Shown: in pieces, positions 5,129-64,000 of the stretch | How positions within the stretch are numbered: the first letter of the stretch is position 1 | How the letters are laid out: each line of letters opens with the position of its first letter | Translations under genes and position numbers: made by a program | Notes under the pieces: generated by a model | Seen by the model: only the letters and a program-made list of their open reading frames with translations | Databases searched by the model: none | What the model was told of the DNA's origin: nothing | Assembly: GCF_023078375.1 (NCBI RefSeq) | Contig: NZ_CP095554.1 | Span: 2,344,501 to 2,408,500, forward strand | Source: Roseomonas gilardii subsp. gilardii | Lineage (GTDB): Bacteria > Pseudomonadota > Alphaproteobacteria > Acetobacterales > Acetobacteraceae | Length of the DNA stretch: 64,000 bases | Reading direction: 5' to 3'

Positions 5129-7834
<2,706 letters not shown>

Positions 7835-7939
7835 GGCGCGTAAAACCCCTGCCTGACGTTGGTGACGTTTAACCGGCTTGAAGCATGGCGGCCGGTGCGG
7901 GTCCAGGGGGACCACGGAAGCAGTCATAAGGTGGGGGCC

Positions 7940-8530
7940 GTGCTGACGGCGGAAAAGCTGCATTTGCGCCGCGGGGGCCATGACGTGGTCGCGGATTTGG
8001 ACTTCACTGTGAGTCCTGGCGAAGCGATAGTAATTCTCGGTCGCAACGGTGCCGGCAAGTCCTCGCTTCTTCGCGCCCTGGCCGGGCTGCTGCGCCCCGC
8101 CGGGGGGCGGGTGGCCTGGGACGGCGCCGACATCGCCGCCCACCCCGCCGCCCATGCCCGGCGCCTGCGCTGGGTCGGGCATCTCGATGCCGCCAAGCCT
8201 TCCCTCACCGTGCGGGAGAACCTGGAATTCCTGGCGCGCCTCCTCGGCGGGTCGGTGCAGGCGGCGCTGGACGCCCTGGCGCTGAACGCCATCGCCGAGC
8301 AGCCGGCCCGTGCCCTGTCCTCCGGCCAGAAGCGCCGCCTCGCCCTGGCGCGGCTGGCGCTCTCGCCCGTTCCGCTCTGGCTGCTGGACGAGCCGACGGT
8401 GGGGCTGGACACGGCCTCCGTCGCGCGGCTCGGCCCGCTGCTGGCGCGGCACAGGGCGGGCGGCGGCATGGTGCTGGCCGCGACGCATCTGCCGCTGCCC
8501 CTGCCGGACATGCGGGAGATCACGCTGTGA
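7940..8530 (+). CDS. ccmA: Heme exporter ATP-binding protein CcmA
   Basis: 196 residues, the usual length of CcmA. It is the ATPase of the CcmABCD complex that releases heme-loaded CcmE during cytochrome c maturation at the inner membrane. Walker A is GRNGAGKSS, the ABC signature is LSSGQKRR and Walker B is LWLLDEP followed by the D-loop GLD. I chose the GTG at 7940 because an AAGGTGG-like ribosome site sits six bases upstream; GTG 7931 and a TTG at 7859 are possible but would add residues not expected before the first beta strand ([11 protein letters not shown]). ccmB follows 28 bases downstream. Confidence 0.93.
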
Positions 8531-8558
8531 GGCGCCGCGCGGATGCGGGAGAAAGGCT

Positions 8559-9218
8559 GTGAAGCCCTGGCTCGCCGTGCTGTCGCGGGAACTGCGCCTC
8601 GCGGTTCGCCACCCAGGCGATGCACTGGCCGCAATGCTGTTCTTCCTCGTGGTCTGCTCTCTCTTTCCCTTCGGCGTGGGCCCAAGTCCGGAGGCTCTGG
8701 CGCGCCTCGCGCCCGGCGCGCTGGTGGCGGCCGGGCTGCTGGCCGCCCTGCTGCCGCTGGACCGGCTCTTCGGCGCGGAGGCGGAGGATGGGTCGCTCGA
8801 CCTGCTGCTCCTGTCCGGCCTTTCGCCGGCCGCCCTGGCCCTGGCCAAGGCCGCCGGCCACTGGCTGACCACGGGCCTGCCACTGGTGATGGCGGTGCCG
8901 CTGGCCGGCGCCATGCTGAACCTCGACCCCGCGGCCTGGCCCACCGCCTGTGCCGCCCTGGCCCTGGCCGGCGTGGTGCTGTCGCTGCTCGGCACCCTCG
9001 GCGCGGCGCTGACGCTGGGCGCGCGGCGCGGCGCGGCCCTGCTGCCCGTGCTGGTGCTGCCCCTGTCCGTGCCGGTGGCCATCTTTGCCGCCGCCGCCAT
9101 CGAGGCCACCACCGCCGGCCTGTCGCCACGCCCTTATCTGCTGCTCCTGGCCGCCCTCGCGGCGCTGGCGGCGCCGCTGGCACCGCTGGCGGCCGGCGCC
9201 GCCCTGCGGAGCGACTGA
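8559..9218 (+). CDS. ccmB: Heme exporter permease CcmB
   Basis: 219 residues, dominated by about six hydrophobic segments, matching CcmB, the integral membrane partner of CcmA. The N-terminal [12 protein letters not shown] followed by a first helix with FPFGVG is characteristic of the family, as is the R-L-F[12 protein letters not shown] stretch after the second helix. The GTG start is chosen because GGGAGAAAGG lies just upstream. Together with ccmA it forms an operon; ccmC and the rest of the maturation genes are not in the window, so they must lie elsewhere on the chromosome. Confidence 0.93.
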
Positions 9219-53542: not shown

Positions 53543-54508
53543 TCAGCGCGAAGGCGTCCAGGAAGGCGGCGCGACCGAGCCCACCTGCTCCACGATGCGG
53601 CCATAGGCCTCCGGGCGGCGATGGGCGGCGAAGTTGAAGATGGTGGTGCGGCCGAGCTGGCACATGTCCAGGTCGCAATCCGCCACGATCAGCTCGTCGT
53701 CCCAGGAAGTCGCCTGGGCCATGATTTCGCCCTGCGGGTTGCAGATGATGGAATGGCCGAACAACTCGTGCCCATCCTCCACGCCGCCCTTGGCCACGCC
53801 GACGCCGAAGCAGGCATTCTGGTAGCAGCCGGACTGGATCGACAGATGGCTGTGCAGCACGCGCAGGTGGTGCGCCTCGAAGCCGCGCCGGTCCTGGTTG
53901 ATGCTGGGGGTGTTGTATCCGAGCATGACCAGCTCGACCTGCTGCAACCCGAGCACGCGCCAGGCCTCGGGCCAGCGGCGGTCGTTGCAGATCAGCATGC
54001 CAAGATTCACTTCCTGGCCGCCGACCGGGGCGCGGACCACGGGGAAGCCGAGATCGCCGACCTCGAAATAGCGCTTCTCCAGATGCTGCACCTGCCGGAC
54101 CGGGTCGTAGTCCTTATGCCCGGGCAGATGGATCTTGCGGTACTTCAGGACAATCTCGCCCGAGGGATGGACGAAGACGGCGGTGTTGAAGCGGCGCCCG
54201 TCGGGCGTCTTCTCGGCATAGCCCAGGTGGAAGGCGATGCCGTATTTGCGGGCGGCCTGGAAGAGCGGCGCGGTCTCGTTGGAGGGCAGCGCCGTCTCGT
54301 ACCAGTGGTCGGCGTTGGCGATGTCCTCCTCGTACCAGCGCGGGAAGAAGGTGGTCAGCGCCAGCTCGGGGAAGACGACCACCTGGGCGCCGCGCTGATG
54401 GGCGCGCTCCATGAGCCGGACCATGCGGCCGACCGCGACGTCGCGGCCCTCCGCCTTCTGGATGGGGCCAAGCTGGGCGCCGGCCACGGTGATGAGTCGC
54501 TGGGTCAT
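53543..54508 (-). CDS. N-carbamoyl-amino-acid hydrolase (D-carbamoylase-like)
   Basis: 321 residues of the nitrilase superfamily. The Glu-Lys-Cys triad is E48 (FPELALTTFFPRW), K125 (KYRKIHLPGHK) and C174 (MLICNDRRWPEAWR). These three segments, and HLEKRYFEVGDLGFPV and FGHSIICNPQGEI, follow the Agrobacterium N-carbamoyl-D-amino acid amidohydrolase closely. The enzyme removes the carbamoyl group of N-carbamoyl-D-amino acids, the products of hydantoin opening. The cyclic-amidohydrolase gene lies just upstream, with a GNAT gene between, giving the classical hydantoinase-carbamoylase pair in one direction. Confidence 0.92.
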   Translation of the reverse strand: MTQRLITVAGAQLGPIQKAEGRDVAVGRMVRLMERAHQRGAQVVVFPELALTTFFPRWYEEDIANADHWYETALPSNETAPLFQAARKYGIAFHLGYAEKTPDGRRFNTAVFVHPSGEIVLKYRKIHLPGHKDYDPVRQVQHLEKRYFEVGDLGFPVVRAPVGGQEVNLGMLICNDRRWPEAWRVLGLQQVELVMLGYNTPSINQDRRGFEAHHLRVLHSHLSIQSGCYQNACFGVGVAKGGVEDGHELFGHSIICNPQGEIMAQATSWDDELIVADCDLDMCQLGRTTIFNFAAHRRPEAYGRIVEQVGSVAPPSWTPSR

Positions 54509-54549
54509 GGGGGCAGGGAGGTACACCCGGTTCCTCCCCGCGCCAATGC

Positions 54550-55044
54550 TCAGGATGTGGGCGAGATGGCCTCCAGAGTGATCTTCATGCCGCAATGCGT
54601 GGCAAAAAATCCGATCTGCTCATAGAATCGGCGGGCCTGCTCGCGGCTGGCATGGGTGGTGAGCTGCACCATGACGCAGCCCGCTTGCCGCGCCCTGTCG
54701 ATGGCATGGTTCATGAGCGCCGTGCCCAGGCCCTGCCCACGATGGGTGGAGGCGATGCGGACGCTTTCCACCTGCGCCCGCATCCCGCCCTGGTGCGACA
54801 GATGCGGCAGCAGCATGAACTGCAGGCAGCCGACCAGCCGGCCCTGCGCATCCTCCGCCACGATCACCGACCAGCCGGGCAGGGCGGCGATGGCGGCAAA
54901 GGCCTGCCCATAGGAAGCCGGCAGGGCACCATCCGGCGAGGCGGCCTCGCGTGCGGCGCCGAAGCCGTCATCGGCCATCAGCCGCACGATGGCGGGAAGG
55001 TCCGCGGCGGTGGCGTCGCGGAAGCGCGGCGCGGCGGCGCTCAT
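54550..55044 (-). CDS. GNAT-family N-acetyltransferase
   Basis: 164 residues. The acetyl-CoA pyrophosphate loop reads HRGQGLGTALM (R/Q-x-x-G-x-G/A), preceded by strand beta4 QVESVRIAS and followed by the AREQARRFYEQIGF segment. The start overlaps the stop of the cyclic amidohydrolase gene (ATGA), and the carbamoylase gene begins 41 bases later, so it is part of the same operon. An amino-acid product of the pathway is a natural substrate candidate, for example N-acetylation of a released D-amino acid; this is inference. Confidence 0.88.
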   Translation of the reverse strand: MSAAAPRFRDATAADLPAIVRLMADDGFGAAREAASPDGALPASYGQAFAAIAALPGWSVIVAEDAQGRLVGCLQFMLLPHLSHQGGMRAQVESVRIASTHRGQGLGTALMNHAIDRARQAGCVMVQLTTHASREQARRFYEQIGFFATHCGMKITLEAISPTS

Positions 55045-56426
55045 GCCGCACCGAGATAGGTGTCGCGGTGCTGGCGCGGCACGAAGCCGCCGGTGCCGGG
55101 CTTCGCCAGAACCTCCCGGCCATTCCAGATGCAGGCGCCGCGCAGATAGGTGGCGGCGACGCGCGCCTTCACCGGGCGCCCGTCATAGGGCGACCAGCGG
55201 GCATCCTCGCGGTCCCGGATCTCCGCCGCGTCGAAGGTGAAGTCGCCACGCTCCATCACGCAGAGATCGGCATCCGCGCCGATGCGGATGGCGCCCTTCT
55301 TCGGGAAGAGGCCGTGGAAGCGGGCCGGCCGCTCGGCGCAGTAGAGCGCCATGAGCTGCGGGGACAGGCCACGCTCGGCCAGCAGCGTGTACATGACGGG
55401 CGCGAAGGATTGCATCCCGGTGAGGCCGGCGCCGACGGCGAAGATGTCGCCCCGGTAGACCTTCTTCTCGCGCGGCCAGGGCGCATGGTCGGTGGAGACA
55501 TAGGCGATGCGCCCGGCCAGCAGCTCCTCCCACATGCGCTCCACCTCCTCCGCCGTGCGGAAGGGCGGGTTGCACTTGCCGAAGCCTTCCAGGCGGACCA
55601 GATCCTCCTCGGTCATGCAGAGATACTGTAGGCAGGCCTCGCCGCTGGCCTTGCCCCCCGCGCGGCGGAAATCCTCTGCCATGCGGAAGCCGCGGGCGAT
55701 GGAGGAATGCGCCATGTGGACATGCGCGCCCGTCTCCAGCCCGATCTCGAAGATCTCGCCATCCGCCATGCTCTCGGCCAACGGCGGGCGGGTGCGGCAA
55801 TGCATGATCGGATCGGTGCGCCCCTCCGCCTTCGCCTGGGCGGTCAGGTATTCGACCAGCTCCTGGTCCTCGTTGTGGACGGAAACCATCAGGCCGGTCT
55901 TCGCGATCTCGCGGAAGGCCTCGGTCATGGTGATGTGGTCGATCCGCGGGAAGCGGTTCTCGTCGTACTCGTAGGTCGAAAGCTTGAAGGAGCAGGCGCC
56001 CGCCTCGGCCAGGGCGGGGATCGCCTCCACCCCACCGCGCTTGCGGATGGTGCCGTAGAGGGCGACGTCCACATGCGCCAGCCGTTCCACCCACTCCACC
56101 TTCTCGCGGAAGATCGCCGCATCCGTCACCGCGCGCGGCACGTCATAGGGCATGTCCACGCAGGTGGTGACGCCGCCCGCAGCGGCCGACATGGTCGCGC
56201 CCTCGATGCCGGGAAAGCCGACAGCGCTGCCGGTGTGCATATGCCCGTCCACCAGGCCCGGCAGCACGAGATGGCCGCGATGGTCGGCCACGCTGCGGGC
56301 GGCAGGCGGCTCGCCCTCGCCGATTCCCGCGATGCGGCCGGCGCTGACGGCCACCCAGCCATCGGCGAGGATCTGGTCGGAAAGCACCAGCTCTCCCCGG
56401 ATCAGGGAGTCGTAGGTCTGGCTCAT
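55041..56426 (-). CDS. Cyclic amidohydrolase (dihydropyrimidinase/hydantoinase/allantoinase family)
   Basis: 461 residues, a metal-dependent TIM-barrel with a flanking beta-sandwich. The metal ligands are HMHT, the carboxylated lysine in CSFKLSTYEYD, HNED, HMAHSS and D in STDHAPW. The product is an N-carbamoyl amino acid if the substrate is a hydantoin or dihydropyrimidine, or allantoate if it is allantoin; the coupled carbamoylase gene favours hydantoin or dihydropyrimidine. The ATG has GAGGCAG upstream. It is the first gene of the operon with the GNAT and carbamoylase genes. Confidence 0.92.
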   Translation of the reverse strand: MSQTYDSLIRGELVLSDQILADGWVAVSAGRIAGIGEGEPPAARSVADHRGHLVLPGLVDGHMHTGSAVGFPGIEGATMSAAAGGVTTCVDMPYDVPRAVTDAAIFREKVEWVERLAHVDVALYGTIRKRGGVEAIPALAEAGACSFKLSTYEYDENRFPRIDHITMTEAFREIAKTGLMVSVHNEDQELVEYLTAQAKAEGRTDPIMHCRTRPPLAESMADGEIFEIGLETGAHVHMAHSSIARGFRMAEDFRRAGGKASGEACLQYLCMTEEDLVRLEGFGKCNPPFRTAEEVERMWEELLAGRIAYVSTDHAPWPREKKVYRGDIFAVGAGLTGMQSFAPVMYTLLAERGLSPQLMALYCAERPARFHGLFPKKGAIRIGADADLCVMERGDFTFDAAEIRDREDARWSPYDGRPVKARVAATYLRGACIWNGREVLAKPGTGGFVPRQHRDTYLGAA

Positions 56427-57222
56427 TGGGGCTGCCTCACGGTTGATCGCGTCATCGTGTCTGCGGATGGACGCGACGCTAGACCCGTTGCGTCGGGAGC
56501 GCGAGGGCGGAGCGCGACAGGACGGGCCGGGCGGATGGCGGTGCCGCAGCGGTGCGGCGACAGGGCGAACCGGGCGAGCGCCGCGCGGTACCGGAGAAAC
56601 GCCGAGATCCCTTTCGTGCAAAAGCCGGAAGCAAAGATGCGCATGACGGCTGGGGCATGGCGGAGGCCGGAACGGGTGATCGCCGGGATGCCGGACCGGC
56701 AGCCTGACGCGGGCGTCGTGCCCCTCGCGGCGGTGGCGCGACGCGCGGCGGCATGGCGACGATCATGTCCGTGCCGTGCATCCGGCGACATGCAGCGGAG
56801 CGCGTGGAACAGAGGTGGCGCGCGTTTTCGTTGACAAGCATCGGGTGCATCCCGATAGCGTGCGTCACGCGCCATGATTGCGCGATTCGCTGGAAGCGAC
56901 GCACGGCTGGGTGTCGGATGCGGCTTCGGCGAAGAGCTTCAGCAGGTGGTGTCGCGGAACGAGGAACGGTTCGGAACCAAGAGCCGGAATGGAAGCCGGT
57001 CAGGCATCCCGCAGCCGGATGGTTGCCCCCGGTGGGCAGGTTCGGGATGCGTTGTCCGGATGCGACCCCGGTTTGCGGGACGATCCGCCGGACAGGCCCA
57101 GTGACGTTCGGGCTGGCGCTTCAAGACATTCCTTTCGCGCGGGTTGCAGCCGAGGACGGCATGACGCGTTGCCGTTCCGGGCAGACAGACAACATCTTTC
57201 AGAATCGAGCAGGAGACCAGTC
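56427..57222. other. Long non-coding stretch before the histone-like gene
   Basis: 796 bases without a believable gene: open frames in both directions have no ribosome sites, no domain motifs and a shifted amino-acid mix rich in Arg/Pro/Ala. The only signal is a possible promoter at 56831-56859. It may hold a long leader or a small RNA. Confidence 0.55.
56831..56859 (+). promoter_or_regulatory. Possible sigma-70 promoter
   Basis: TTGACA (56831-56836), then a 17-base spacer and GATAGC (56854-56859). The -35 box is perfect and the spacing is ideal, while the -10 is weak, as is common in GC-rich alphaproteobacteria. It points toward the histone-like gene, with about 360 bases between it and the start codon. 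Confidence 0.4.
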
Positions 57223-58104
57223 ATGAGTGAAGAAACCGGCGACAAGGCCCCGCGGGCCCAGGCCATGGCGGTGAGCACCACCCGCCGCAGCACCAGCGCG
57301 CGCCGTGGCACCACCACCGCCCGCAAGGCTCCGGCGGCGGCGAAGAAGCCCGCCGCGAAGAAGGCCGCGACGACCCGCACGGCGGCGGCGAAGAAGCCGG
57401 CTGCGAAGAAGGCGACGGCGACCCGCGCCGCCACCACGCGCACCGCCGCGAAGAAGCCCGCCGCGAAGAAGGCGACGGCGACGACCCGCCGCGCGGCCAC
57501 CACGCGCACCGCCACGGCGAAGAAGCCCGCCGCGCGGAAGACCGCCACCGCCGCCCGCGCCACCACGGCGCGCAAGCCGGCCGCGCGGAAGACCGCCACG
57601 GCAACGACCCGCCGCGCCGCCACCACGCGCACCGCCGCGAAGAAGCCCGCCGCGAAGAAGGCGACGACGACGACCCGCCGCGCCGCCGCCACGCGCACCG
57701 CCACGGCGAAGAAGCCCGCCGCGCGGAAGACGACCACCGCCGCCCGCAAGGCGCCCGCCCGCACCACCGCCAAGGCTGCTGCGCCGAAGCGCGCCACCAC
57801 CGCCCGCAAGGCGACGACGCGCAGCGCCGCCGCCAAGCCCGCCACGCGCCGCGTCGCCACGGCCCGCAAGCCGGCGACCCGTACGGCGGCGGCGAAGCCC
57901 GCCACGGCGCGCAGCACGTCCCGCAAGCCCGCGGCCGCCAAGCCCGCCAGCACGTCCAGCAGCGCGCGCTCCGAAGCCGCGAAGAAGGCCGCCGCGACGC
58001 GCGCGCGCCGCAAGGCCGAGGCCGCTGCGGTGATGCCGGCGCCGGAGCCGGTGATGGACCTGCCGCCCGTCGTCGCCAATGATGGCGAGCCGCAGGAGGA
58101 TTGA
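57223..58104 (+). CDS. Histone H1-like, lysine/alanine/arginine/threonine-rich nucleoid protein
   Basis: 293 residues, mostly built from short repeated units such as KKPAAKKA, TTRRAATTRTA and KKPAARKTA, with very few acidic or aromatic residues between about 20 and 260. This is the composition of histone H1-like bacterial proteins (Hc1/Hc2, BpH1 and AlgR3-type tails), which bind DNA through charge. The N-terminal acidic leader (SEETGDK) and the C-terminal tail (PAPEPVMDLPPVVANDGEPQED) are distinctive. The ATG has AGGAGACC upstream. The frame is open up to 56878, but that part differs in composition, so I use the site with a ribosome binding sequence. Confidence 0.85.
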   Translation: MSEETGDKAPRAQAMAVSTTRRSTSARRGTTTARKAPAAAKKPAAKKAATTRTAAAKKPAAKKATATRAATTRTAAKKPAAKKATATTRRAATTRTATAKKPAARKTATAARATTARKPAARKTATATTRRAATTRTAAKKPAAKKATTTTRRAAATRTATAKKPAARKTTTAARKAPARTTAKAAAPKRATTARKATTRSAAAKPATRRVATARKPATRTAAAKPATARSTSRKPAAAKPASTSSSARSEAAKKAAATRARRKAEAAAVMPAPEPVMDLPPVVANDGEPQED

Positions 58105-58148
58105 GCCGGATCGCCTGACGGGCACTCCGCCTGTCAGGCCCCAGCAGC

Positions 58149-58183
58149 AAGGGGGTGCCGCAGCGATGTGGCACCCCTTTTTT
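58149..58183 (+). terminator. Rho-independent terminator of the histone-like gene
   Basis: A GGGGTGCC/GGCACCCC stem (58152-58159 with 58170-58177) and a 10-base loop are followed by six T. A second, 7-bp hairpin (GCCTGAC, 58113-58119, with GTCAGGC, about 58133-58139) lies just upstream. It is the best terminator in the window. Confidence 0.9.
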
Positions 58184-58186
58184 GCG

Positions 58187-59443
58187 TCAGCCGATCTCCT
58201 CGAAGGCGCGCAGGAACATGTCGCGCCCGCCGAAATTGCCGGATTTCAGCGCGAGGTGCAGGCCGGGAGGATCGGCGAAGGTCCAGGGGACACCGGGCGC
58301 GATCTCGCCGCCGATGCGCAGGCTGCGCAGGCCCAGGCGCTGCGCCACGGCCCCCGAGGTTTCCCCGCCCGCCACGACCAGCCGGCCGACGCCACGCTCC
58401 ACCAGCCCCGCCGCGATGGCGGCCAGTGCTTCCTCCACCATCGCGCCCGCTGCCTCGCGCCCCAGGCGCCGTTGCAGCAGCGCCACGCGGTCGGGCATGG
58501 CGGAGGCGGCGATCACCACGGGGCGGTCCTCCCGCAGCTTGCCATCCACCCATCCGAGCGCGGCGGAGACCATCGCCGGGCCGTCCTGCGCCAACGGATC
58601 GAGCTCCAGCACCGGCACATGGTCGCGCGCGAAGCCGATCTGCCCCAGCGTGGCGCGGGAGCAGGAGCCCGCGAGCACGGCGCCATATCCCCGCATGGGC
58701 GGCAGCGCATCGGCATCGTCGCGAGGCGGCAACAGCCCGGCGCGGCGGAAATTCTCCGGCAGGCCCATGGCGATGCCGGAGCCGCCGATGAGCAGCGGAT
58801 GCGCCGCCGCAGCCTCGCCGATCGCGACCAGATGCGCGTCGGTCAGGGCATCGAGGATGGCATAGCGGCGGCCGGATTCCGCGAGGCGCGTCATGGCCTG
58901 GCGGATCGCTCCCGCGCCCTGTTCCACCGTGGCGAAGCCCACCAGCCCGACACCGCCATCCGTCTGGCGCGACAGCACGCGCACCAGGTCGGGGTCGCGC
59001 ATCGGGGTGAGGGGATGGTCCTGCATCCCGCTCTCGCTCAGTAGCCGGCTGCCGACGAAGAGATGGCCCTGGTACACGGTGCGGCCATTCGCCGGAAAGG
59101 CCGGGCAGGCGAGGGCGAAACCCGCCTGGAGACGGCGCAGCAGCGTATCCGCCACCGGGCCGATATTGCCCGCATCGGTGCTGTCGAAGGTGGAGCAGAC
59201 CTTGAACAGGATCTGGCGCGCGCCCGCCGCCAGCAGGGCCTCCAGCGCCGCCTGGGATTGCGCCATCGCCTCCGGCGCCGGGACGGTGCGGGATTTCAGT
59301 GCCACCACCACGGCATCGGCCTCGGGGAGCGGCGCATCCGGCACGCCGATCACCTGGATGGTGCGCATGCCATGGCGCACCAGCATGGAGGCGAGGTCGG
59401 TCGCCCCGGTGAAGTCATCCGCGATGCAGCCCAGAAGAGGCAC
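58187..59443 (-). CDS. otnK: Four-carbon acid sugar kinase (OtnK/DUF1537 type)
   Basis: 418 residues with both domains of the family: the N-terminal substrate domain starts at GCIADDFTGATDLASMLVRHG, including the D-D-F-T-G-A motif, and the C-terminal nucleotide domain has LVVAGGETSGAVAQRLG. OtnK enzymes phosphorylate 3-oxo-tetronates such as 3-dehydro-threonate. No aldolase or dehydrogenase of that pathway adjoins it; instead it ends a minus-strand run with methyltransferase, glycosyltransferase and pterin-type genes, starting 32 bases after the methyltransferase stop. The GTG start has GGAG upstream; the frame continuing up to 60373 is antisense to nothing coding but overlaps the next gene and is rejected. 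Confidence 0.87.
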   Translation of the reverse strand: MPLLGCIADDFTGATDLASMLVRHGMRTIQVIGVPDAPLPEADAVVVALKSRTVPAPEAMAQSQAALEALLAAGARQILFKVCSTFDSTDAGNIGPVADTLLRRLQAGFALACPAFPANGRTVYQGHLFVGSRLLSESGMQDHPLTPMRDPDLVRVLSRQTDGGVGLVGFATVEQGAGAIRQAMTRLAESGRRYAILDALTDAHLVAIGEAAAAHPLLIGGSGIAMGLPENFRRAGLLPPRDDADALPPMRGYGAVLAGSCSRATLGQIGFARDHVPVLELDPLAQDGPAMVSAALGWVDGKLREDRPVVIAASAMPDRVALLQRRLGREAAGAMVEEALAAIAAGLVERGVGRLVVAGGETSGAVAQRLGLRSLRIGGEIAPGVPWTFADPPGLHLALKSGNFGGRDMFLRAFEEIG

Positions 59444-59475
59444 GGTGCGGTCTCCGCGTACGAGGAAGGGTTGGA

Positions 59476-60342
59476 TCAGCCAGCGGCGGGAACCGCCAGC
59501 AGATCGCGATGCCCGATCACCGCCCGCAGGCGGTTCTGCTGCCATTGGCGGCTGCGCGCCTCGGTCCAGGCCTCGATGCGGCGCGGCTGGCGCAGATGGG
59601 CGCTCGCCGCATCGGCATGGCCCAGCATCAGCTCCAGCAGCAGCTCGCGATGGCGCCGCGGGCCGAGCTCCCAGGTCGATCCCGCCTGCTCCACGGCGAA
59701 GCCGCGCGCGGCGAAGGCACGTGCCGCCGCCGCCGTGGCCCCGCCGCCCAGGGCCGGCCCGTCGAAGCCCTTGTCGCGGCGCTGGTCGCGCCGGAAGCCC
59801 TGCGCCACCACGCCGTCGAGCGGATGCGGCGGCAGGAAGCGGTCGCGCCCGTCCACGGTCATGGAGGCATAGAAAGGGCATTCGACCACATCGGCCAGAT
59901 CCTCCATCCAGTCCTCGGACACGAGGTCCAGCAGGGCGGAGCAGACCACCGCATCGGCGCCGCGCTTCGGCAGCCAGTCCGGCGCGTCGGCGAGATCGGC
60001 GATCAGCCCCTCCACCCGCCAGGCGCCGCCGGGCGTATGGATCAGCAGGGTCCGCTTGTTCGGGGCGCTCACCGTCAGGCCGATACTGTCCGCGCGGCGG
60101 GCGATGGTGTCGAAGGCCTCCTCCACCAGCGCGGCGTCGCCGTCTACCAGCGTCCAGACCTGCGCGCCGCCGATCTGCGGGGCGAGCCAGCGGAACAGGC
60201 TGCCGGTTCCGGCGCCGAGATCGACCAGATGCGGCCGCTGCGGCAGCAGGGAGACGAGATGCGCCGCCAGGGCGGGATCGCGCGCCCAGGCATCGGCGGG
60301 TTCGCGCAGCGCCAGCCAGGTGGCGTCGAAGCTCTCGCTCAC
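59476..60342 (-). CDS. Class I SAM-dependent methyltransferase
   Basis: 288 residues. Motif I is HLVDLGAGTGSLFRWLA (the VDLGAGTGS glycine loop, about 38-48), followed by the acidic post-I residue in WTLVDGD and motif IV-like GADAVVCSALLDLVSEDW. The later part is long and unlike rRNA or protein methyltransferases, so a small-molecule substrate is likely. The GTG overlaps the glycosyltransferase stop (GTGA) and has GGAGGG upstream, so synthesis of the two enzymes is coupled. Confidence 0.85.
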   Translation of the reverse strand: MSESFDATWLALREPADAWARDPALAAHLVSLLPQRPHLVDLGAGTGSLFRWLAPQIGGAQVWTLVDGDAALVEEAFDTIARRADSIGLTVSAPNKRTLLIHTPGGAWRVEGLIADLADAPDWLPKRGADAVVCSALLDLVSEDWMEDLADVVECPFYASMTVDGRDRFLPPHPLDGVVAQGFRRDQRRDKGFDGPALGGGATAAAARAFAARGFAVEQAGSTWELGPRRHRELLLELMLGHADAASAHLRQPRRIEAWTEARSRQWQQNRLRAVIGHRDLLAVPAAG

Positions 60343-61379
60343 GCCGCGCCCTCCATGAGCGCCGCGAAGGCATCGGCGCGGTCCTCCCAGCGCGGCAGCC
60401 GCTGCCCGGCGGCCCAGGAGGCGTCGGCCATCTTCCGGCGCAGCGAGCGGTCGAAGATCACCCGCCGCATCGCCTTCGAGAGGCTGGCGAAGTCGCCCGG
60501 CGGCGAGGCGACGCCGGCTCCGGGTGGCATCAGATCGGCCAGCGCGCCGCCCTTGGTGATCGCCAGCGGCAGGCCGCGCGCCATGGCCTCGGCCACCGCC
60601 ATGCCATAGCCCTCCCAGTGGGAGGCGAGGGTGAAGACATCGCTGCGGGCATAGAGCGCCTCCAGCGCCGCGCCAGTGACGGGGCCGGCGAAGGTGACGC
60701 GTTCCTCCAGGCCCAGATCCTTCGACAGAGCGCGCAGCGCGGCGGCGCAGGCGGGATCGGCATCCGGCCCGGCGATGGTCAGGTGCCAATCGAGATCCAT
60801 CAGCCGCGCCACGGCGCGCAACAGCACGTCATGCCCCTTGCGCGGCACCAGCACGCCGACGGCGAGGAGCTGGCAGGTCTCGCCGCCCGATCCCGGGGCG
60901 CGCGGTGCCGGATCGGTGCCCGGCTCCACCACCGCGACGCGGCCGGGCTCCACGCCGAATTCCCGCGGCAGGCTCCCGGCGGTCAGCGGCGAGGTGGCAA
61001 CGAGGCGCGACAGGCGCGGATAAAGGATCTCCTCCCGCCGCCGCAGCTCCGCGCGGGTGGCCTCGTCATGGCCCGTCTCGATGCAGGTGGGATGGTGGAT
61101 CAGCCCGATGGCGCCGCGCACCGCCAACTTCTCCACCAGCGGCGCGAAGGCGGGCAGGCCGAGGCTGTCCAGCACGATCCGCTCCTCCGCCACGCAGGAG
61201 GAGAGCGCCTCACGCGCCGAGGCTTCCGCCGCCGCATCGGGCACCGGATGCCGGCCGGCGAGTTCCACCACGCGCACCGCATGGCCACGCTCGCGCAGCC
61301 CGGCGGTGATGCGGCGGTCATAGCCGTAGCCGCCACTCACCGCATCGAAAGGGGCGGGGACGAGGAAGGCGATGTTCAT
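60339..61379 (-). CDS. GT4-family glycosyltransferase
   Basis: 346 residues with a GT-B fold. The N-terminal MNIAFLVPAPFDAVSGGYGYDRR glycine loop is typical of GT4 donors and acceptors, and the C-terminal nucleotide-sugar site reads SHWEGYGMAVAEAMARGLPLAIT with the E-x7-E motif. It transfers a sugar, retaining its anomeric configuration, to an unknown acceptor; no membrane segment is visible. The start overlaps the PTPS-like gene stop (ATGA). Its position between a PTPS-like and a methyltransferase gene suggests a small-molecule acceptor rather than a polysaccharide. Confidence 0.88.
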   Translation of the reverse strand: MNIAFLVPAPFDAVSGGYGYDRRITAGLRERGHAVRVVELAGRHPVPDAAAEASAREALSSCVAEERIVLDSLGLPAFAPLVEKLAVRGAIGLIHHPTCIETGHDEATRAELRRREEILYPRLSRLVATSPLTAGSLPREFGVEPGRVAVVEPGTDPAPRAPGSGGETCQLLAVGVLVPRKGHDVLLRAVARLMDLDWHLTIAGPDADPACAAALRALSKDLGLEERVTFAGPVTGAALEALYARSDVFTLASHWEGYGMAVAEAMARGLPLAITKGGALADLMPPGAGVASPPGDFASLSKAMRRVIFDRSLRRKMADASWAAGQRLPRWEDRADAFAALMEGAA

Positions 61380-61777
61380 GCCACCGCGCCCTCATAGGCG
61401 GCCCAGGCCAGCGGACTTTCGCGCAGCAGGATCTTCAGCGACTGCACGGCGCGTCCGCTCTCGCCCAGTTTCCCGTCCCGCAGGGCGGCCGACAGCAGCC
61501 CGTGGATATGCGCGCAGAGGAATTCCGTGGTGGTGTTCTGCCCGGCCAGTTCCGGCACCTCGTCGAGGTTGCGGTAGTCCAGCCCGTCGAGGACCCGGCG
61601 CAGTTCGACCCGCGCGGCGGCGATGTCCACCAGCAGGTTCGCGCCATCCAGGCGCGCGGCGCGGAATTCCGCCTCCACGACGAAGGTCGCGCCATGGACG
61701 CGCTGGGCGGGGCCAAATTCCTCGCCGCGAAAGGAATGGGCGATCATGATGTGGTCGGCGACGGTCAGGCTGTACAC
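61376..61777 (-). CDS. 6-pyruvoyl-tetrahydropterin synthase/QueD-like protein
   Basis: 133 residues. It follows the T-fold PTPS/6-carboxytetrahydropterin synthase pattern: a first strand ending in DHIMIAHSF with a histidine, VHGATFVVEAEF where relatives have the H-x-H metal site (HGATF here), VDIAAARVELRRVLDGLDYRNLDEV and NTTTEFLCAHIHGLL, in which the P-T-A/S-E motif is replaced by T-T-T-E. The GTG start lies about ten bases after GGAGG. The nonstandard metal motif means activity could differ from QueD. It is coupled to the glycosyltransferase gene and 144 bases after the dehydrogenase gene. Confidence 0.82.
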   Translation of the reverse strand: MYSLTVADHIMIAHSFRGEEFGPAQRVHGATFVVEAEFRAARLDGANLLVDIAAARVELRRVLDGLDYRNLDEVPELAGQNTTTEFLCAHIHGLLSAALRDGKLGESGRAVQSLKILLRESPLAWAAYEGAVA

Positions 61778-61921
61778 GCGGAAGGAGCCTCCAGGCGAAG
61801 GGTTGGCGCGGCCGCCGGGCAAGGGTGTGGCCGGGTTTGCGGACAGAATTAAGGCGTGGCGCGCCGGCCCGGCAACGCGCGGCAGGAGGGTCGCGGCGCC
61901 GGGCGGCTCATAGCGGAAGAC

Positions 61922-62899
61922 TCAATAGATGACGACCGGGCAGAGCGGCGCATCCTGGCCGGGCGCCGGTTCGAGCAGGCGTGGCAAGGCCCGCGGCAGT
62001 TCGGCGAAGGGCAGCACCGGGCCACAGAGCGCATCCAGCGCGGGATCGTCCAGCAGCGACAGGGCCAGCGCCAGGCGTTCCGCATGCGTGCGGCGGCCAC
62101 GCATGGCGGGAGAGACCTGTCCGACCTGGGTGGAGAGGAGGCGCAGGCGGCGCGCGTGGAAGGCTTCGCCGAGCGGCAGGCCGATCTCGGCATCGCCGAA
62201 CCAGGAGGCCTCCAGGATGCGTGCCTCCGGCGCCGCGCAGCGGAGCGCGAGGCGCAGCCCCTCCGCGCTGGCGCTGGCATGGATGACCAGTTCCCGTTCC
62301 GCCGGCGCCTCCTCCGGCATGGCGAAGCGCAGGCCGAGCCCTTCCGCCACCGCGCGCCGCGCGGGGTCACGGTCCAGGATATGGAGTTCGACACCGGGAA
62401 TGCGCGACAGCAGGAAGGCGGTGAGCAGCCCGACCACGCCGGCACCGATCACCAGGGCGCGCTCGCCCATCAGCGGCGCGGCATCCCAGAGGATATTGAG
62501 GGCCGTCTCCATATTCGCGGCCAGCACGGCACGGCGGTCGGGGATGCGGCCGGGCACGGGGATGCACATCGCGGCCGGCGCCACGAAACGGTCCTGGTGC
62601 GGATGCAGGCAGAAGACCCGGCGCCCGCGCAGCCGCTCCGGCCCGGACTCCACCACACCAACCGCCGCATAGCCGTATTTCACGGGGAAGGGGAAGGCGC
62701 CGCCCATCAGCGGCGCGGCCATGATCCCCCACTGGCTTTCCGGCACGCGCCCGGCGAGCACGAGGCGTTCCGTGCCGCGCGAGATGCCGCTGGCGAGGCT
62801 GCGCACCAGCGCTTCCTCCGCGCCCGGTGGCGGCAGGGTCTCGCGGCGCAGCTCGGCCCGGCCGGGCGCGACGCTCCAGAGCGCCGTCGCCTCCGTCAC
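61922..62899 (-). CDS. MDR-family alcohol dehydrogenase-like protein
   Basis: 325 residues of the medium-chain dehydrogenase/reductase family. The N-terminal GroES-like part has SGISRGTERLVLAGR and GYAAVGVVE, and the Rossmann motif is GAGVVGLLTAFLL. The catalytic zinc ligands (C-GHE) of true alcohol dehydrogenases and the four-cysteine structural zinc loop are not seen, so it is likely a zinc-free reductase, such as those related to bacteriochlorophyllide or quinone reduction. The GTG overlaps the stop of the RibD-like gene (GTGA), placing it second in the operon. Confidence 0.82.
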   Translation of the reverse strand: MTEATALWSVAPGRAELRRETLPPPGAEEALVRSLASGISRGTERLVLAGRVPESQWGIMAAPLMGGAFPFPVKYGYAAVGVVESGPERLRGRRVFCLHPHQDRFVAPAAMCIPVPGRIPDRRAVLAANMETALNILWDAAPLMGERALVIGAGVVGLLTAFLLSRIPGVELHILDRDPARRAVAEGLGLRFAMPEEAPAERELVIHASASAEGLRLALRCAAPEARILEASWFGDAEIGLPLGEAFHARRLRLLSTQVGQVSPAMRGRRTHAERLALALSLLDDPALDALCGPVLPFAELPRALPRLLEPAPGQDAPLCPVVIY

Positions 62900-63693
62900 G
62901 CCGTGGCTTCCCGGATGGGCGGCGCATCCTGGCAGATGCCGGGCCTGGCCCGGTCCAGGGGGATATCGAAGAGCACATCGTCGCCAAGCGGATGCACCGT
63001 CCAGGCGAAGCGCAGACCCTCGGCGATGCGCGCGACCTGCGGCAGCACGAAGGCGGGCCGGCCGGAACCCAGGATGACCGGCGCCACGGTCAGGTGCAGC
63101 CGGTCCAGCAGCCCCGCCGCCAGGAAGCGGGACACGGTGACGCCGCCTCCTTCCACGAAGACGCGGTGCAGGCCACGGGCGAAGAGCTCGCACAGCAGGG
63201 CGGGCAGGAAGCCGCCGCGCGGCAGGCGCAGGATCTCGGCGCTGCCGTGATGCGTGCCGCCATCGCCTGGCGCGTCCTCGGCGCAGGCCAGCAGGGTGCG
63301 CGGCGGACCGGAGAAGACGCGGTAGCCGGTGCCCAGCCGCCGTTCCGTGTCGATCACCACGCGCACGGGGTTCGGGCCATCCACCTCCCGCGTCGTGAGC
63401 TGCGGGTTGTCGGCGGCGACCGTGCCCGCGCCGACCACCACGGCATCGAAGAGCGCGCGCAGCCGGTGCGTGTGCAGGATGTCGCCCCGGCCGCCGATCC
63501 AGTGGCTGGCGCCGCAGGCGGTGGCGATGCGCCCGTCCAGCGTCTGGGCGAGGCGGCCGAGCACGAGGCAGCGCCCGGCCCCGTCCCTGGCGGGGCGCAG
63601 CAGCGGCATGAAGAGGCGCGCGAGCGGATGGTCCGGTGGTGGCCCGCCGGAAGCAGCCCGCATCAGCATGGCCCAGGCGTCGTCATCTCCCAT
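62896..63693 (-). CDS. RibD C-terminal-domain (DHFR-like) reductase
   Basis: 265 residues, corresponding to the reductase half of RibD without the deaminase half. LGRLAQTLDGRIA, SHWIGGRGD, ALFDAVVVGAGTVAADNPQLT, VFVEGGGVTVSRFLAAGLLD and the end ILGSGRPAF are the family's NADPH and substrate motifs. RibD reductases act on the ribose side chain of pyrimidine intermediates in riboflavin synthesis; stand-alone versions reduce other pterin- or flavin-like compounds. It is the first gene of the cluster; a GTP-cyclohydrolase gene would be expected beside it but is not in the window. GGAGG lies very close to the ATG. Confidence 0.88.
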   Translation of the reverse strand: MGDDDAWAMLMRAASGGPPPDHPLARLFMPLLRPARDGAGRCLVLGRLAQTLDGRIATACGASHWIGGRGDILHTHRLRALFDAVVVGAGTVAADNPQLTTREVDGPNPVRVVIDTERRLGTGYRVFSGPPRTLLACAEDAPGDGGTHHGSAEILRLPRGGFLPALLCELFARGLHRVFVEGGGVTVSRFLAAGLLDRLHLTVAPVILGSGRPAFVLPQVARIAEGLRFAWTVHPLGDDVLFDIPLDRARPGICQDAPPIREATA

Positions 63694-63787
63694 GCCTCCG
63701 GCTATGCCGCAGGGCGGAACGGCGCGCCATCCCGGGCGTGGCATTCGCCCCGGCGGCTCGCGCGATTGTTCGGCGCGGCGCCGCCGT

Positions 63788-64000
63788 TCAGGCGCGGGTG
63801 CCGATGCTCAGGAAGGGAACCGGACGCAGCGGCGTGCGGCGGCCGGCGGTGGTGTAGGTGACGGGCTGCGCATGGGGCAGGGCGGCACCGGCGATGGTCT
63901 CGATCACCTTGGCCTGCAAGGCGATGGCGCGTTCCAGCAGGCGGCGGTTCTCGTCCGAAAGGTCCTTCAGGCGCAGGGACAGCCGCTCCGTTTCCGCACG
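63788..64000 (-). CDS. FlgN-like coiled-coil protein (partial)
   Basis: The last 70 residues are in the window; the gene starts outside. An alpha-helical segment (LRLKDLSDENRRLLERAIAL, then QAKVIETIA) is followed by a tail YTTAGRRTPLRPVPFLSIGTRA. This resembles the C-terminus of FlgN-type flagellar export chaperones of alphaproteobacteria, whose long helix holds the same N-x-x-L-L-x-x-A pattern. Without the rest of the protein or flagellar neighbours, the call is tentative. Confidence 0.45.
   Translation of the reverse strand, partial: RAETERLSLRLKDLSDENRRLLERAIALQAKVIETIAGAALPHAQPVTYTTAGRRTPLRPVPFLSIGTRA

Follow-up and report, generated by a model that had tools for sequence, protein, structure and literature searches.

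In archaea and fungi, the entry into riboflavin and F420 synthesis consists of the opening of GTP, deformylation by ArfB and reduction by ArfC/Rib7. Pterin glycosides are made by a different logic in Chlorobium, where the pteridine glycosyltransferase uses tetrahydrobiopterin (PMC5683033), and where folE and an active 6-pyruvoyl tetrahydropterin synthase (PTPS) are therefore needed. PTPS and QueD belong to COG0720, whose subfamilies PTPS-I, II and III carry the signatures CxxxHGH, CxxxxxHGH and ExxHGH (PMC5041015). Here we describe a gene cluster at positions 58187-63693 of a 64,000-nucleotide stretch of Roseomonas gilardii subsp. gilardii (the window; bases 2344501-2408500 of the 4.2 Mb contig NZ_CP095554.1). 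The cluster encodes a RibD-type reductase (RIBD), a medium-chain dehydrogenase/reductase (MDR), a PTPS-like protein of the family of Streptomyces coelicolor SCO6650, a GT4 glycosyltransferase (GT4) and a class I S-adenosylmethionine-dependent methyltransferase-like protein (MT), followed by an OtnK-type kinase.

We propose that RIBD, MDR, the PTPS-like protein, GT4 and MT form one widespread pathway that would convert a GTP-derived 2-amino-4-oxo-pyrimidine into a glycosylated, methylated pterin-type product, a reading that we consider evenly balanced between right and wrong. That the core genes share a pathway is well supported: their grouping is far beyond chance, because most of the relatives examined have these genes next to one another. 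A gene was counted as present in a locus when a tblastn match of at least 45 bits had its midpoint no more than 10 kb away; some loci are cut short and distant homologues can escape tblastn, so that counts of absence are not proof. Besides the window, the analysis covered 40 Acetobacteraceae neighbourhoods, 40 from other alphaproteobacteria and 80 from named genomes (161 loci, 151 of them distinct). Within the Acetobacteraceae we counted 41 loci, one being the window's and 40 drawn from the 66 further genomes that match the PTPS-like protein strongly; MDR and GT4 are present at 40 each, RIBD at 39 and MT at 33. At 69 loci from outside the family, in other proteobacteria, actinobacteria, Gemmatimonadota and Acidobacteria, MDR was found in 68, GT4 in 66, MT in 60 and RIBD in 49, with all five core genes together in 43. 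This outside set is not a random sample. It joins 30 loci from named genomes (L155-L184), taken from the lower ranks of the 80 best among at least 568 PTPS-like relatives in named genomes, to 39 of the loci L185-L224, which represent 40 of 44 other alphaproteobacterial genomes matched (G201, G212, G383 and G406 were left out) and from which L188, a repeat of L170, was removed. Another 50 loci (L105-L154) were kept out of both counts as they look like members of the Acetobacteraceae, and nine of them repeat the 41; the 41 further distinct loci among them have MDR in 39, GT4 and RIBD in 38 each, MT in 32 and OtnK in 34. The initial annotation had proposed a shared pathway and named conserved synteny as the check on it, and the recurrence of the set at 41 Acetobacteraceae and 69 other loci bears this out.

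Strong relatives of the PTPS-like protein were present in 67 of 150 Acetobacteraceae genomes (E ≤5.5e-30; window's genome included), and relatives at E 1e-15 in 45 of 385 alphaproteobacterial genomes and 27 of 398 genomes of the phylum (window's genome counted in each). The best 80 relatives in named genomes include Actinomadura, Lentzea, Amycolatopsis, Saccharopolyspora, Streptomyces and Micromonospora, as well as Gemmatimonadota, Acidobacteria, Lamprocystis, Thioalkalivibrio and a Burkholderiales bin. In a tree of concatenated MDR, PTPS-like and GT4 sequences (73 loci, midpoint-rooted, support values not considered), the actinobacteria group together, and actinobacteria, Gemmatimonadota and Acidobacteria fall inside the proteobacterial spread, as might be expected if the gene set had long ago been transferred horizontally as a unit. 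Three divergent Acetobacteraceae loci (L073-L075) encode proteins 41-56% identical to those of the window, and L073 stands apart from the main Acetobacteraceae group in the tree. At one locus, L068, the PTPS-like gene occurs alone, without partners. The methylation step may be optional, because MT was not found at seven loci (L051, L055, L071, L072, L073, L074 and L075) where MDR, PTPS-like and GT4 genes remain.

The PTPS-like gene (61376-61777, minus strand, GTG start) encodes a protein that the initial annotation had labelled PTPS/QueD-like. The label holds for the fold, with a Pfam PTPS match of 77 bits, above cut-off, and Foldseek TM scores (normalized by query) of 0.60-0.77 to QueD/PTPS chains of the T-fold at ranks 3-29, but not for the active site. 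Among 151 distinct loci, none has a catalytic Cys at positions 19-29 (0/160 before duplicate removal) and none has the HGH zinc motif, which is replaced by HGA in 150 and HGC in one, so that one zinc-ligand position is Ala; half of the 160 sequences (80) had been retrieved with a pair of patterns that include HGAT, and the remaining 80 (41 from the Acetobacteraceae, 39 from other alphaproteobacteria) were chosen by protein or profile scores. By alignment to 2g64, position 68 corresponds to the catalytic His of PTPS; it is Tyr in 142 of the 151, Phe in eight and Leu in one. Eight residues are invariant in all 151 (His14, His28, Gly29, Thr31, Asp51, Asp72, Glu85 and Glu120), the family carries the long, near-invariant motif AHSxxGxxFGPAQxxHGAT, and Glu85 occupies the pterin-binding (pterin-edge) Glu position. 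None of the PTPS-I, II and III signatures was found in the family. The listed QueD/PTPS structures are 15-23% identical to the protein, and the closest solved structure is SCO6650 itself (3D7J; E 1.4e-40, 55% identity, root-mean-square deviation 1.0 Å to the model). Judged by its sequence and fold, the protein is a member of the SCO6650 family and not a PTPS or QueD, and a QueD/PTPS identity was rejected on account of the replaced residues. The claim that this enzyme would give a tetrahydropterin falls with them, as the whole family has other residues in place of the catalytic Cys, of one zinc His and of the catalytic His. The 2008 paper on the SCO6650 structure is said to have described a protein lacking zinc, the triad and PTPS activity.

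RIBD (62896-63693, minus strand; ATG at 63693, 265 amino acids) matches PF01872 (RibD_C) above cut-off at 123 bits and is a stand-alone reductase domain without the deaminase domain. An earlier ATG at 63744 would give 282 amino acids, and homologues in the Acetobacteraceae have a median length of 269 (n=39). RIBD is a paralogue of the genome's separate, bifunctional housekeeping RibD and agrees with it at 20 of 23 family-conserved columns; its best solved chain is 6p8c, named as a 2,5-diamino-6-ribosylamino-4(3H)-pyrimidinone 5'-phosphate reductase, whose substrate is undeaminated. MDR (61922-62899, minus strand) is recognized by matches below cut-off and by its modelled fold: the model has a mean predicted local distance difference test score of 93.5, and the 50 listed PDB matches are MDR chains at 12-20% identity. 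None of its 56 columns conserved at 95% or more among 108 sequences is Cys. MDR has a medium-chain dehydrogenase/reductase fold, lacks the usual zinc cysteines and is only distantly BchC-like. BchC itself was considered and rejected for this protein, given a TIGR01202 score of 40.2 bits against a cut-off of 291.25 and a fold search that listed only generic MDR relatives.

GT4 (60339-61379, minus strand; 346 amino acids) matches PF00534 (Glycos_transf_1) above cut-off at 102 bits and has 28 columns conserved at 95% or more among 106 sequences. MT (59476-60342, minus strand) gives matches to Methyltransf_25, Methyltransf_12 and Methyltransf_23 that are all below cut-off, has 20 such columns among 92 sequences, and returned no solved relative by phmmer at E 0.01. 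From the family resemblance of GT4 and MT, the product may be a glycoside and methylated. The kinase at 58187-59443 (minus strand, GTG start) is a clear OtnK 3-oxo-tetronate kinase (NF043035 579.5 bits, cut-off 350; SBD_N 254 and NBD_C 140 bits). It had been counted among the pathway genes, a role that we rejected: it adjoins the cluster in 33 of the 41 Acetobacteraceae loci and in none of the 69 others, and is an ordinary kinase, a lineage-specific neighbour that is probably not part of the pathway.

Evidence for the entry step comes from genes that accompany the cluster elsewhere, which we found by clustering neighbouring open reading frames in L155-L184 together with family searches. Outside the Acetobacteraceae, a GTP cyclohydrolase II gene lies within 10 kb at 28 of the 69 loci (the L169 copy is above the ribA cut-offs) and a creatininase-family amidohydrolase gene (PF02633) at 20, with either at 34 and both at 14. 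Restricting the set to the 46 loci whose sequence extends 9 kb or more to each side leaves 22 with GTP cyclohydrolase II and 16 with creatininase. With one to three copies per genome of 4-5 Mb, the number of GTP cyclohydrolase II genes to be expected in 69 stretches of 20 kb is about one. Three other genes served as internal controls in the same neighbourhoods: folE was found at one of 161 loci (one of 151 distinct; L211), and neither a QueD nor, by tblastn, a RibD deaminase was found at any of the 161. A folE-based route is thus not supported. The initial annotation had suggested looking for a nearby folE or ribA-type GTP cyclohydrolase gene; the ribA type is there at 28 of the 69 outside loci, but at none of the 41 Acetobacteraceae loci, and folE is there at just the one locus. 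This linkage argues for an entry step from GTP outside the Acetobacteraceae.

Three small alphaproteobacterial genomes of 1.4-1.6 Mb (L222, L223 and L224; two in one genus) carry the cluster as a seven-gene island. In these, the three smallest cluster-bearing genomes read, exactly seven genes are adjacent in the order creatininase, MDR, PTPS-like, GT4, MT, RIBD and GTP cyclohydrolase II, at a locus GC content of 26-28%. The islands of L222 and L223 were followed gene by gene, and their flanking genes differ. We take these seven genes as the minimal set. Other partners were found as well: a methyltransferase with an FkbM domain (PF05050) and a sulfatase-like protein each occur within 10 kb at 15 of the 69 outside loci and an LPG_synthase_TM membrane protein (PF03706) at 14, and none of the three occurs within that distance at the 41 Acetobacteraceae loci. 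The sulfatase-like loci are L156, L157, L158, L160, L161, L163, L164, L167, L170, L180, L184, L202, L208, L211 and L220; the L157 copy matches the Pfam sulfatase family at 33 bits (cut-off 25), and the L161 copy has no Pfam match at 0.001.

In the linked GTP cyclohydrolase II proteins, the canonical Tyr of the motif GRGIGLxxKxxxY is kept at 21 of the 28 loci, namely actinobacterial L176 and 20 non-actinobacterial loci, L185 included. It is replaced by His, Gln or Met at six actinobacterial loci (L164, L166, L169, L173, L179 and L181), all of which also carry creatininase. Spoonamore and colleagues are said to have found in 2006 that the Met-bearing GTP cyclohydrolase II SCO6655 of S. coelicolor stops at the formylated product, and SCO6655 lies near SCO6650 in that genome. 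A formyl product for all linked GTP cyclohydrolase II enzymes was considered and set aside, as the six actinobacterial loci that have lost the Tyr are the only ones that support it.

The genome of the window has three GTP cyclohydrolase II domains: one with the canonical motif (L225), one belonging to a RibBA-like protein in which the second domain appears degenerate on visual inspection (L226) and a more distant one (L227). The pathway in this genome probably shares ribA with riboflavin synthesis, because L225 is 57-68% identical to the cluster-side copies at nine alphaproteobacterial loci (L171, L185, L187, L196, L210 and L213-L216). The genome also has one folE gene, away from the cluster, two other PTPS-family genes, both with the HGH motif, and four creatininase genes, of which L228 is the best candidate; L228 has no match to the ArfB model NF033501 at E 1e-5.

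In the scheme that we propose, GTP cyclohydrolase II would open GTP to 2,5-diamino-6-ribosylamino-4(3H)-pyrimidinone 5'-phosphate, a step that in the window's genome would probably fall to the canonical ribA elsewhere on the chromosome. Some actinobacterial enzymes may instead release the formyl form, and the creatininase would then act as the deformylase, as ArfB does in archaea. RIBD would reduce the ribosyl side chain to ribityl, as in the archaeal and fungal entry route. The guanine-derived 2-amino-4-oxo edge would stay in place, giving a product of the pterin type and not of the lumazine or flavin type, because no RibD deaminase accompanies RIBD. The PTPS-like protein would bind this edge through Glu85 and work on the ring, or present it, without PTPS/QueD chemistry. 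MDR may alter the oxidation state of the side chain or ring, GT4 would glycosylate and MT would methylate, and in some lineages the LPG_synthase_TM protein, the FkbM methyltransferase and the sulfatase-family protein may serve export or further decoration. The order of the steps, the ring system and the identity of the product are what we infer. A pterin-like product, as first suggested for this cluster, therefore stays plausible on the strength of the missing deaminase, although the tetrahydropterin mechanism offered for it fails.

Several observations weigh against this scheme. In the window the cluster has no precursor gene linked to it, neither GTP cyclohydrolase II nor creatininase was found within 10 kb at any of the 41 Acetobacteraceae loci, and outside the family GTP cyclohydrolase II is nearby in just 28 of the 69 loci. 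Of six cluster genomes searched, two possess just one GTP cyclohydrolase II gene, which may thus be shared with riboflavin synthesis. The canonical Tyr form should leave no formyl group, and yet creatininase also accompanies it at eight loci (L160, L180, L184, L192, L198 and L222-L224). In profile scores the linked creatininases come closest to the MftE (mycofactocin) model and stay far under ArfB, all below cut-off; against NF033501 (cut-off 180 bits) the L164 creatininase reaches 40.3 bits and the L161 creatininase gives no match at E 1e-5. L228 co-occurs with the cluster weakly (16 of 67 cluster genomes and 9 of 83 others at E 1e-50). The GTP cyclohydrolase II of L209 lacks the Tyr motif, and its best match is the RibBA copy of the window's genome. 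The subtype of RIBD is also less clear than its best solved match suggests: the second solved match, 2azn, is named a putative reductase of the deaminated substrate, and the NCBIfam scores, all below cut-off (archaeal 106.0, eubacterial 105.1 and general ribD_Cterm 129.3 bits), do not separate the subtypes.

A bolder account of the product, to which we give somewhat less than even odds, is a previously undescribed GTP-derived pterin-type cofactor or exported glycoconjugate, entered at GTP cyclohydrolase II, with the 2-amino edge kept and a PTPS site rebuilt around HGAT for a new reaction. The likeliest rival, which we nonetheless think improbable, sends the GTP cyclohydrolase II product to a dihydropterin monophosphate closed with the help of the T-fold PTPS-like protein, makes RIBD a dihydropterin reductase and leaves MDR, GT4 and MT to modify the side chain. 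The RibD_C domain has a dihydrofolate-reductase-like fold, and T-fold proteins include ring-closing GTP cyclohydrolases, one of which gave a weak structural match (5k95, E 7e-3); the lack of a deaminase and near lack of folE around the cluster and the invariant Glu85 in the pterin-binding position would suit this route as well. It sits badly with RIBD, which keeps 20 of 23 true-RibD columns and whose best solved match is a ribosylaminopyrimidine reductase, since reduction of the ribosyl group would block ring closure, and with the Ala at one zinc-ligand position. Rather less probable still is that the PTPS-like protein is no enzyme and acts as a pterin-binding or carrier protein whose ligand the other genes make or modify. 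Its lost catalytic residues, the retention of Glu85 at all 151 distinct loci and the reported lack of zinc, triad and PTPS activity in SCO6650 are what such a protein would show, but the long near-invariant motif and the constant enzyme neighbours suggest a catalytic role.

We regard the mechanism of the initial annotation, in which the PTPS-like protein makes a tetrahydropterin from dihydroneopterin triphosphate as PTPS/QueD would, as very improbable. The Pfam PTPS match speaks for it; the missing Cys and HGH, the change of His to Tyr in most sequences and the single folE among 151 distinct loci speak against it, as do the two HGH-bearing PTPS-family genes that the genome has besides and the reported failure of SCO6650 to convert dihydroneopterin triphosphate. 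Least credible of all is chance co-location, or a common regulator without a shared pathway: the window's copy does lie beside flagellar genes and OtnK, which seem unrelated, but the core recurs across several phyla amid different surroundings.

Within the window, as the initial annotation had described, the six genes run in one direction, in the order RIBD, MDR, PTPS-like, GT4, MT and OtnK on the minus strand. The start/stop overlaps noted there occur at three of the five junctions (GTGA at RIBD/MDR, ATGA at PTPS/GT4 and GTGA at GT4/MT), but not at MDR/PTPS-like, where 144 nt (61778-61921) form the sole wide gap within the core, nor at MT/OtnK, where the gap is 32 nt. Measured between midpoints of matches, the MDR to PTPS-like spacing is smaller than the window's in most of the 41 Acetobacteraceae loci. 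Genes for a FlgN-like protein (match below cut-off), for a rod-binding protein and for FlgI run the same way as RIBD directly upstream of it, at and beyond the end of the window (6289-8758 of locus L004), and FlgI occurs within 10 kb at 18 of the 41 Acetobacteraceae loci. A promoter and terminator consensus scan of 57900-64000 gave no match. On the other side of the cluster, a Lys/Ala/Thr-rich repeat protein is encoded at 56878-58104 (plus strand; histone H1-like HC2 match of 23.8 bits, cut-off 40), and adjacent genes for a carbon-nitrogen hydrolase, a GNAT acetyltransferase and an amidohydrolase at 53543-56621 (minus strand) possibly serve hydantoin, ureide or pyrimidine breakdown.

If the proposal is right, a pathway present in proteobacteria, actinobacteria, Gemmatimonadota and Acidobacteria is kept even in genomes of 1.4-1.6 Mb. 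Should its product be a new cofactor or signal, many bacteria of soil and water would contain it, hidden behind the name '6-pyruvoyl tetrahydropterin synthase'; for SCO6650-family proteins, the name PTPS or QueD would mislead. The functionally unannotated structure 3D7J gains a testable pathway, with fixed partner enzymes, a likely GTP entry step and a minimal set in small genomes.

Literature searches, which covered few subscription journals, brought up no account of this gene set or of SCO6650 function that we noticed, and to our knowledge the product of the pathway is undescribed. Among described systems, the cluster shares with the archaeal and fungal entry route a GTP cyclohydrolase, a creatininase-family protein and a RibD_C reductase without deaminase, but the three creatininases tested here are far below ArfB, and the PTPS-like protein, MDR, GT4 and MT are joined to the set. 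The pterin glycosides of cyanobacteria and Chlorobium likewise combine a pterin-type aglycone with a glycosyltransferase, as in the logic proposed here; the cluster differs in its ribA-type linkage and altered PTPS fold. BchC is the best NCBIfam match of MDR, but at 40 against 291 bits, and the cluster also occurs in actinobacteria, none of which is known to us to make bacteriochlorophyll. The PTPS/QueD enzymes of COG0720 I, II and III resemble the PTPS-like protein in the T-fold and Glu85 and differ by the signatures absent here. The closest relative is SCO6650 of Streptomyces coelicolor, which belongs to the same family and shares the motif HSFRG..FGPAQRLHGAT; it was deposited as an uncharacterized protein, whereas the present analysis links its family with a gene set conserved across several phyla.

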